This document shows, in pieces, positions 55,001 through 57,335 of a DNA stretch of 64,000 nt. The notes under the pieces were generated by a model, which saw only the letters and a list, made by a program, of their open reading frames with translations, was not told the origin of the DNA and searched no databases. Source of the DNA: an uncultured Candidatus Actinomarina sp. (lineage in GTDB: Bacteria; Actinomycetota; Acidimicrobiia; Actinomarinales; Actinomarinaceae); assembly GCA_902610815.1 (NCBI GenBank), contig CACLXG010000001.1, positions 405,573 to 469,572 on the forward strand. The letters are read 5' to 3'. Numbering within the stretch: the first letter of the stretch is position 1; the number at the start of each line of letters is the position of its first letter. The translations under genes and the position numbers were made by a program.

Positions 55001-56557
55001 CTAGGAAGTCATAAAATAATAATTAAATCCATCGCAAAGAGCATTCCAAGAAGCATTGATAATATTTTCATGAACACCAATAGTGCTCCATTGTTTTTTA
55101 GTATCAGTAAATTCAACTAATACTCTTGTTTTTGCTTCTGTACCATCTGAGGAATCAATTATTCTCACCTTATAATCAATAAGTTTCACATTGTTAATAT
55201 CTTGATAGTCGTTTTCAAGAGCTGCTTTCAATGCTTTTGAAAGCGCATCCACTGGACCAACTCCTTCACCTGTTTTTACATACCTATTACCATTAACAGT
55301 TATTTTGCAAACAGCTTCTGAAACAACATTTTCAGAGTTTCTTCTTTCAGAAAAAACTCTGAAGCTTTCAAATTCAAAAAAATCTGGCCTAATTCCTTTT
55401 ATTGAATTCATTAATATAAACAATGAAGCATCTGCTGCTTCAAACTGAAAACCAATGTGTTCAAGATTTTGAACTTGTTGAATGAGCTCTTTAGCTTCAT
55501 CATTATTAATATTTAAACCAAACTCCTCTGCTTTTGTAATAACACTTGCTCTACCAGCTAATTCAGAAACCGTTGTTCTTGTAAAGTTCCCAACTTTTGA
55601 AGAATCTATGTGCTCATATAGTGAGCTATCTTTAGACATGCCAGATGCATGAAGTCCTGCCTTATGGGTAAAAGCTGAGGATCCAACATATGGATGCCTT
55701 GAATCGATAGAAACATTTACAAGTTCTGCAATATGGTTGGCTGTCTGGGTTAGTTTTTTAAGATAATCTATAGGTATTGTCTCGTAATTTTGCTTTAAAG
55801 ATAGATTTGGAATGAGTGTACACAAGTCAGCATTTCCAGTCCTTTCACCATACCCATTGATTGTTCCTTGAACATGATCAACACCAAGGTCTACTGCAAC
55901 CATTGAGTTAACAACTGCACACCCGTTGTCATTTTGAAAATGAACACCAAATTTTGTTTTTGGATATTTTTCTATAACCTCAGAAAGAATTTTTCTTACT
56001 TCCTCGGGTAATGTACCACCATTTGTGTCACAAAATATAAAGCAATCTGCACCAGCTGTAACTACTGATTCAAGAATTTTTAAACTTGTTTCAGAGTCTT
56101 CTTTGTAGCCATCAAAGAAGTGTTCTGCATCAAAAAATACTTTTTTACCTTTTGATTTTAAATATAAAATTGTATCAACTGCCATTTCAATTGCACTATC
56201 AACATCGGTTTGCAACGCCTTTGTAATATGTAGATTTGAAGATTTTCCTACAATACAGACATAATCAGTGCCTGAATCAACTAATGCCTTTACTTGTGGA
56301 TCATCCTTAGCGGATAAATTTAGCTTTCTAGTGGATCCAAAGCTTACAAGTTTTGCATTCTTTAAATTTAACTCTTTTTTTGCAGTTTCAAAAAACTCTT
56401 CTTCTTTCGGAGAAGCTCCAGGCCATCCTCCTTCAATATAACTAACCCCTAATTCGTCAATTAACTTAGCAATTGCAATCTTATCTTTTACAGAAGGCGA
56501 TATACCTTCTTGTTGAAAGCCATCTCTGAGTGTTGTATCAAATATATCTATTTTCAT
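55001..56557 (-). CDS. cimA: (R)-citramalate synthase
   Basis: The enzyme condenses pyruvate with acetyl-CoA to (R)-citramalate, opening the threonine-independent route to isoleucine. The 518-residue protein starts with the HMGL/isopropylmalate-synthase motif DTTLRDGFQQEGIS, has GFHF-type VHFQNDNG near 200 and HKAGLHASG near 300. It ends with a LeuA-type dimer/regulatory domain (about 385-515), where isoleucine could bind. The GGWPGASPKEEEFF stretch is typical of the CimA branch rather than LeuA. The ATG follows the T-run of a terminator-like hairpin by five bases, with no good Shine-Dalgarno sequence. See the leader features upstream. Confidence 0.9.
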   Translation of the reverse strand: MKIDIFDTTLRDGFQQEGISPSVKDKIAIAKLIDELGVSYIEGGWPGASPKEEEFFETAKKELNLKNAKLVSFGSTRKLNLSAKDDPQVKALVDSGTDYVCIVGKSSNLHITKALQTDVDSAIEMAVDTILYLKSKGKKVFFDAEHFFDGYKEDSETSLKILESVVTAGADCFIFCDTNGGTLPEEVRKILSEVIEKYPKTKFGVHFQNDNGCAVVNSMVAVDLGVDHVQGTINGYGERTGNADLCTLIPNLSLKQNYETIPIDYLKKLTQTANHIAELVNVSIDSRHPYVGSSAFTHKAGLHASGMSKDSSLYEHIDSSKVGNFTRTTVSELAGRASVITKAEEFGLNINNDEAKELIQQVQNLEHIGFQFEAADASLFILMNSIKGIRPDFFEFESFRVFSERRNSENVVSEAVCKITVNGNRYVKTGEGVGPVDALSKALKAALENDYQDINNVKLIDYKVRIIDSSDGTEAKTRVLVEFTDTKKQWSTIGVHENIINASWNALCDGFNYYFMTS

Positions 56558-56562
56558 ATTCC

Positions 56563-56588
56563 AAAAAAAAACCCTTGCAAAGCAAGGG
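56563..56588 (-). terminator. Rho-independent terminator / attenuator before cimA
   Basis: On the minus strand CCCTTGC (56588-56582), loop TTT, GCAAGGG (56578-56572) is followed by nine T residues. It is a perfect seven-base-pair hairpin and T-run. It ends five bases before the cimA ATG, so it cannot simply mark the end of the upstream operon without also controlling cimA. Confidence 0.85.
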
Positions 56589-56613
56589 CAACAACGTTTT
56601 TTACGTTGCTCCT
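56585..56613 (-). promoter_or_regulatory. Candidate antiterminator in the cimA leader
   Basis: The minus-strand segment AGG(A)GCAAC (56613-56605) can pair with GTTGCCCT (56592-56585), eight pairs with one bulged A. This takes four bases of the 5' arm of the terminator hairpin, so the two structures exclude each other. A competing local hairpin CAACGT/ACGTTG (56608-56603 with 56597-56592) also exists. This is pairing seen by eye; energies were not computed. Confidence 0.55.
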
Positions 56614-56638
56614 AAATAATAATTATAATTTTTTTCAT
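56612..56638 (-). CDS. Putative isoleucine leader peptide (MKKIIIII)
   Basis: An eight-codon reading frame begins with ATG 11 bases after the stop of the LppM-like gene and reads ATG AAA AAA ATT ATA ATT ATT ATT TAG. Five consecutive isoleucine codons stand directly before the antiterminator strand. This is the arrangement of a ribosome-mediated attenuator for an isoleucine pathway gene such as cimA. No clear Shine-Dalgarno sequence precedes it. An overlapping TTGACT...TATAAT-like stretch offers a competing promoter reading, so translation is not certain. Confidence 0.55.
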   Translation of the reverse strand: MKKIIIII

Positions 56639-56648
56639 TGAGTCAATA

Positions 56649-57335
56649 TTAGTTCTTTTTTCTATATTGTCTAACAAAAATATAGATCGATGAAAGTACC
56701 AAAAATAAAATTATGATATTTGTTGGGCTTAATAGTGAGTACTTATTTGCAACCACTTCAAAAGTTTTTACAGAAGTTCCTTCAATATCAAAAATCACTG
56801 TGTTATTGACAATATTCTCAAGCTTAGGACTAGTGATATTTCCGGGAACAATTACAGACAACTTGCCGTCAAAAACATTGTCATACCCTTCTATACTTTC
56901 CTCATCTGAAACAAAGATTTCTCCAAAAATTCCATTTATATTAAATGATCTGCTTGACTCACTAAAGTTTATTTCTTCAATAGGTAGCAATAATAATGCT
57001 GTATTTTCGTTTTCATTTAGTAATTTAAATTGAGCTTGCAACTCTTCAGTATTTTGAAAATCATTTCTAACTAAAATACCTAAATAATTTCCCTCTTGAT
57101 AAATTGACGATCCATACCCTTCTGGAAGATCTGCAAGTATAGCGTCTAATCCTCCAATTGCTGTTGTTTGACCAGTTTCTAATGCATAAAACTGTGCATC
57201 CTGATCGAGTAAAATTAATATTTTATAACTACCCGAATAATCTTCATTAAATTCAACTTCCATACTCCACTTAACTTCACAAGCAGAAAAAAGAAGAAAT
57301 GATATAAGCAGATAAAACTTAAACTTTGTGTTCAT
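56649..57335 (-). CDS. LppM-like lipoprotein
   Basis: This secreted lipoprotein of 228 residues has a signal peptide ending in the lipobox FSAC (Cys19), a beta-rich external domain (about 22-195) that begins with VKWSMEVEFNEDYSGSYKI, a C-terminal membrane helix (about 205-222) and a basic tail. This two-anchor layout and the N-terminal strand pattern resemble actinobacterial LppM-domain proteins. Function is unknown; LppM of Mycobacterium affects surface lipids and host interaction. It overlaps rdgB by 17 bases. Its stop lies just before the cimA leader peptide. Confidence 0.75.
   Translation of the reverse strand: MNTKFKFYLLISFLLFSACEVKWSMEVEFNEDYSGSYKILILLDQDAQFYALETGQTTAIGGLDAILADLPEGYGSSIYQEGNYLGILVRNDFQNTEELQAQFKLLNENENTALLLLPIEEINFSESSRSFNINGIFGEIFVSDEESIEGYDNVFDGKLSVIVPGNITSPKLENIVNNTVIFDIEGTSVKTFEVVANKYSLLSPTNIIILFLVLSSIYIFVRQYRKKN

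Follow-up and report, generated by a model that had tools for sequence, protein, structure and literature searches.

A predicted isoleucine attenuator with a leader peptide ahead of citramalate synthase in Candidatus Actinomarina and other Acidimicrobiia

In an uncultured Candidatus Actinomarina sp., the gene for citramalate synthase (cimA) is preceded by a very short open reading frame rich in isoleucine codons and by a terminator-like hairpin. Do these elements form an attenuator through which isoleucine controls cimA, and if so, how might the switch work? We addressed these questions in a stretch of 64,000 nucleotides (the window; contig CACLXG010000001.1 of assembly GCA_902610815.1, positions 405,573 to 469,572) and in related genomes. 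The window carries the following elements, given in the order in which they would be transcribed:

56649-57335, minus strand: upstream open reading frame, called LppM-like in the preliminary description, whose 3' end holds the promoter
56673-56646, minus strand: promoter TAGACA-N16-TAATAT, 5' of the leader and conserved in Actinomarina (TAGACA at 56673-56668, a 16 nt spacer, TAATAT at 56651-56646)
56638-56612, minus strand: leader open reading frame MKKIIIII (ATG AAA AAA ATT ATA ATT ATT ATT TAG)
56610-56590, minus strand: hairpin 1, AGCAACGT-AAAAA-ACGTTGTT, from RNA folding and pair changes between clades
56589-56571, minus strand: intrinsic terminator stem-loop (G)CCCTTGC-TTT-GCAAGGG(T), from folding and conservation, with its core CCCTTGC-TTT-GCAAGGG at 56588-56572
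56571-56563, minus strand: U tract of the terminator, nine T (T9), from sequence
55001-56557, minus strand: cimA, citramalate synthase, the predicted regulated gene, a TIGR00977 equivalog

The product of cimA scored 628 bits against the TIGR00977 equivalog in a profile search (cut-off 450), while the upstream open reading frame is without an NCBIfam match. As the preliminary description had it, a seven-pair terminator and nine T are followed five bases on by the cimA start codon (56588-56563, then GGAAT, then the ATG at 56557 on the minus strand). The leader begins 10 bases past the end of the upstream frame at 56649, however, not 11. Hairpin 1 starts two bases past the leader stop codon, and in RNA folding hairpin 1 and the terminator together reach -21.3 kcal/mol (z -3.4), a value matched by none of 200 shuffles. 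The -10 element shares bases with the stop codon that ends the upstream frame. Because the promoter ends only 6–9 nt 5' of the leader ATG in 28 Actinomarina genomes, the first transcribed base should be in or beside this ATG; we predict a start at about 56639-56638 and a leader frame that is leaderless or nearly so. A competing promoter suggested previously, TTGACT...TATAAT, which spans the leader start and continues into the leader, lacks conservation; the one that is conserved lies further upstream.

Comparison of the 28 Actinomarina genomes that have the cimA start on a contig revealed a stable arrangement: the promoter, the Ile-run frame, hairpin 1, the terminator and T9 are kept in all of them, and none retains the terminator without the Ile run, a combination that the preliminary description had named as refuting leader-peptide attenuation. 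The promoter reads TAGACA-N16-TAATAT/TATTAT or a near variant in 28/28, its -10 element usually being TAATAT or TATTAT. The encoded peptides are MKKIIIII, MKKIIIIV, MNIIIII, MMNIIIII, MMNIIIIN, MINIIIIN, MINFIIII, MINFMIII and MINFIIIT, and in 27 of the 28 a distance of 15 or 18 nt separates the first Ile codon from the end of the stop codon. Hairpin 1 stems are nearly invariant across the genus, with an inner pair that is T-A in one clade and A-T in another. Mean leader identity is 0.83, as compared to 0.41 at four-fold degenerate sites of cimA in the same genome pairs; the leader is therefore under selection. Promoter and leader also persist where the upstream sequence is unrelated, for example in the loci L021 to L024. 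As a separate observation, none of the 28 leaders departs from a T run of exactly nine, so the length of this run may itself be under selection.

The same layout extends well beyond the genus. We scanned 80 other Acidimicrobiia genomes (the order itself is represented only by this genus) for frames of at most 16 codons that end in III (three or four Ile codons), 0–2 further residues and a stop codon. Such a leader precedes cimA in 44 of the 80, against an expectation of 0.01 from shuffled sequence, and a looser scan without a position rule recovered the same 44 genomes. The position rule would have admitted distances from 12 to more than 21 nt between the first Ile codon and the end of the stop codon; all 44 genomes have either 15 nt (28 cases) or 18 nt (16 cases). 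Since the CimA proteins of these relatives are only ~47–55% identical, and the DNA of those with the leader is mostly well above half G+C and reaches ~70% G+C, what these genomes share is the layout and not the sequence. Within the Ile run the codons vary synonymously (102 ATC, 42 ATT) and the flanking residues are variable. A promoter of the type TTGAC-N17-CATACT stands 6–11 nt 5' of the leader start codon in 42 of the 44. Hairpin 1 begins at the last stop base or the next one (offset -1 or 0), has two to five standard pair types at almost all positions of its stem, with many compensatory pairs, and is followed by a gap of 0–8 nt, mostly 4–6, to the terminator core. The original proposal of a short Ile-codon frame and a terminator ahead of cimA is supported by class-wide conservation (28/28 and 44/80) and by a geometry that fits ribosome stalling.

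Eight of the 36 remaining Acidimicrobiia have looser leaders, TILIIP, FEIIT, EIIT, TIVIT, SIGIT and SIIAIR among them, and in many of the rest a long open reading frame ends close 5' of cimA in an operon-like manner. Forty genomes of other families served as a sample from outside the class. Among leaders outside Acidimicrobiia, those of L256 (VIIT, then stop) and L257 (VIID, then stop) precede cimA with a hairpin and a terminator. Others from outside the class (L246, L251, L262) have Ile runs whose stop codon falls within or next to a strong stem that no T run follows; together with L096, this group includes leaders ending in IIIRPLP, MIIIRGSR and IIIIATLP, with the stop in or beside a strong G+C stem. 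These four may represent a second, Rho-dependent or translational type of isoleucine attenuator.

Is the amino acid of the leader matched to the pathway? The ilvB operon of the same genome offers a comparison:

L197:1380-1490 (G000 C1), with counterparts at L200-L228: ilvB attenuator of the same design, ahead of ilvB

Here the leader peptide is MKNLIVVISELVLLLN, the hairpin CGCTCA..TGAGCG directly follows its TAG, and the terminator abuts the hairpin. All 30 Actinomarina ilvB loci fetched have LLVLVL-type leaders with this layout, and the ilvB leaders of the genus are without an Rfam match. Leader codons therefore follow the pathway: they are mainly Leu/Val ahead of ilvB, which the branched-chain routes share, and Ile ahead of cimA, which serves isoleucine alone. 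Searching for threonine deaminase (ilvA, TIGR01127) returned nothing in 42 genomes; of the two PALP proteins in this genome, one is TrpB-like and the other is threonine synthase. Because threonine deaminase is absent from this set, isoleucine synthesis probably depends on CimA alone, allowing for genome incompleteness; where isoleucine has such a single entry, the device would amount to a sensor specific for one amino acid. Neither hisG nor trpE had a match in this genome (G000, 93.7% complete), which makes histidine and tryptophan auxotrophy possible.

From the sequence comparisons, the region is very probably a ribosome-mediated transcription attenuator that would sense charged tRNA-Ile and control cimA. 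The elements, their conservation, the fixed spacing from the Ile codons to the hairpin and the match of amino acid to pathway are observed, and from these we infer translation of the leader, ribosome stalling and antagonism of the terminator by hairpin 1. RNA synthesis would begin with the leader ATG or a base or so ahead of it, and the nearly leaderless frame would be taken up by a ribosome. With isoleucine present, the ribosome would reach the stop codon and its front edge would cover the 5' arm of hairpin 1; with hairpin 1 blocked, the adjoining terminator would fold and transcription would end before cimA. With isoleucine scarce, the ribosome would stall at the first Ile codons, at a distance of 15–18 nt from the end of the stop codon, and so just short of hairpin 1, which would then fold and prevent closure of the abutting terminator, so that RNA polymerase would continue into cimA. 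The front edge of a ribosome lies ~12 nt ahead of its A site; with the A site at the first Ile codon, the ribosome would reach the stop codon and leave hairpin 1 uncovered. Hairpin 1 would thus report ribosome position, because only its 5' arm would be covered by a ribosome at the stop codon and the terminator would be free in both states.

How might hairpin 1 oppose the terminator? We folded leaders truncated before terminator strand 4 is made and measured the fraction of strand 3 that is paired upstream. Only E. coli trpL serves as a folding control, since it gave a clean switch (0.71 to 0.03) and hisL did not. In equilibrium folds of the complete leader, computed for each position of the ribosome, hairpin 1 and the terminator can form side by side, so that in most leaders the terminator remains probable wherever the ribosome stands. 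This counts against the switch, but the measure is equally blind to trpL and was rejected as a test. Across all genomes with the device, the conserved feature is a hairpin directly behind the stop codon, not an overlap of this hairpin with the terminator. Since there is little or no overlap in bases between hairpin 1 and the terminator, the switch seems to rely on a hairpin that abuts the terminator, and not on a long alternative helix; the antagonism could be steric or coaxial exclusion, with invasion of a few terminator bases in some Actinomarina. The more general proposal is an attenuator design in which a hairpin directly behind the stop codon would block an abutting terminator without replacing a terminator strand, and would be inactivated by a ribosome at the stop; it would serve Ile at cimA and Leu/Val at ilvB, and would extend across Acidimicrobiia. 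We put it forward tentatively, as slightly easier to doubt than to accept. A point against the mechanism is that a transcript that is not translated would be predicted to read through, unlike in classical attenuators.

A variant compatible with an isoleucine attenuator is that hairpin 1 acts mainly as a pause hairpin that would synchronize RNA polymerase with the ribosome, the decision being made by an unrecognized pairing or by ribosome-polymerase coupling. Trp and his leaders have a pause hairpin placed behind the leader, and the stable hairpin 1 sits at just this place; against this, no other conserved pairing that would take terminator strand 3 was seen in the truncated fold. We regard this variant as a real possibility, though on balance unlikely.

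The preliminary description instead proposed a classical attenuator in which AGG(A)GCAAC at the stop pairs with GTTGCCCT and removes the 5' arm of the terminator. This pairing can be drawn, and most Actinomarina leaders do sequester part of strand 3 in the truncated fold (~0.22–0.57), several of them while the ribosome is at codons 1–4, with strand 3 mostly free near the stop; in L016, L017, L018, L023, L024 and L029 the value drops from 0.57 to 0.00 once the ribosome reaches codon 5. A clean fall towards zero occurs in only part of the genus, however: the window's own leader goes from 0.30 to 0.22, and L014, L015 and L030 show just 0.12–0.14. Most other Acidimicrobiia leaders have no strand 3 switch at all in this fold despite conserving the rest of the device, and only a few terminator bases are involved. 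Given starting values of 0.12–0.57 in Actinomarina and the lack of a switch in most relatives, the proposed pairing would at best contribute in part and in some lineages, and as the principal mechanism we consider it rather unlikely. Exclusion by abutment, or pausing, would be more general. In the ilvB-II motif, the P1 loop is drawn as pairing with the 3' shoulder of P2 to form the antiterminator (PMC10272879). A corresponding pairing in Actinomarina, between the loop of hairpin 1 and the 3' arm of the terminator, was rejected: the loops are variable and A/T-rich.

As in a proposal made for the LEU element of Actinobacteria, the leader RNA might instead be bound by a regulatory protein or sense a signal other than charged tRNA-Ile. 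An abundance of codons for one amino acid is no proof of attenuation, because in Streptomyces the exchange of candidate regulatory ilvB leader codons was without effect, according to PMC1262725, which cites earlier work, and the near invariance of hairpin 1 within Actinomarina could be read as a binding site. Across the class, however, the sequence of hairpin 1 is free to change as long as pairing is kept, unlike a protein site, and conservation falls on the Ile run and on how far it stands from the hairpin; we therefore judge this reading improbable. That the hairpins merely terminate the upstream gene, which ends just before the leader, and that the Ile run is only AT-rich sequence in AT-rich Actinomarina DNA is scarcely credible, given Ile runs at the same place in G+C-rich relatives where almost none are expected, a promoter conserved between gene and leader, leaders retained behind unrelated upstream sequence, and an ilvB counterpart with Leu/Val codons.

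The attenuator favored here, sensing tRNA-Ile ahead of cimA, would span lineages as different as the marine, streamlined Actinomarina and Acidimicrobiia rich in G+C. Should the reading with an abutting hairpin be true, it would be a new attenuator construction, one missed by searches for alternative pairings. The open-access literature that we searched describes no cimA attenuator, in agreement with the preliminary description, and we found no papers there linking Acidimicrobiia to leader peptides and attenuation; since no cimA attenuator was found in that search, this appears to be the first case of leader-peptide control of the citramalate route to isoleucine. Nor did the cimA leader match Rfam families at gathering scores (ilvB-II and ilvB-OMG where held, T-box and others), the best leader family being Phe_leader at 17.6 bits with 55 needed.

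How does this device compare with known systems? T-box riboswitches, which sense uncharged tRNA ahead of amino-acid genes, are described in Bacillota upstream of genes of the leuA/citramalate type (COG0119; PMC12452182), but the cimA leader is far too short for one and has no T-box match. In Actinobacteria, ilvB, trp and leuS are known to have leader peptides with terminators and leuA to have leader peptides, several of them leaderless (PMC1262725, PMC10272879, PMC8079986). The cimA leader resembles the actinobacterial ilvB leaders (the Corynebacterium ilvB-II motif, PMC10272879; Streptomyces ilvL, reported leaderless, PMC8079986; PMC1262725) in combining a branched-chain leader peptide, stem-loops and a terminator, but it precedes another gene and has other stems. 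With S. meliloti trpL it shares a leader frame at the RNA 5' end (PMC7298713), although that system is alphaproteobacterial, uses Trp and serves another operon. Closest in outline are the trp, his, ilv and leu attenuators typified by E. coli trpL and hisL, likewise built from a short frame rich in codons for the end product, an intrinsic terminator and a promoter just 5', and, as far as geometry goes, likewise placed so that a stalled ribosome would expose, and a ribosome at the stop would cover, a downstream stem; unlike them, the cimA leader is without a long antiterminator overlapping the terminator, uses Ile only in a peptide of 7–14 residues, and has cimA as its target.
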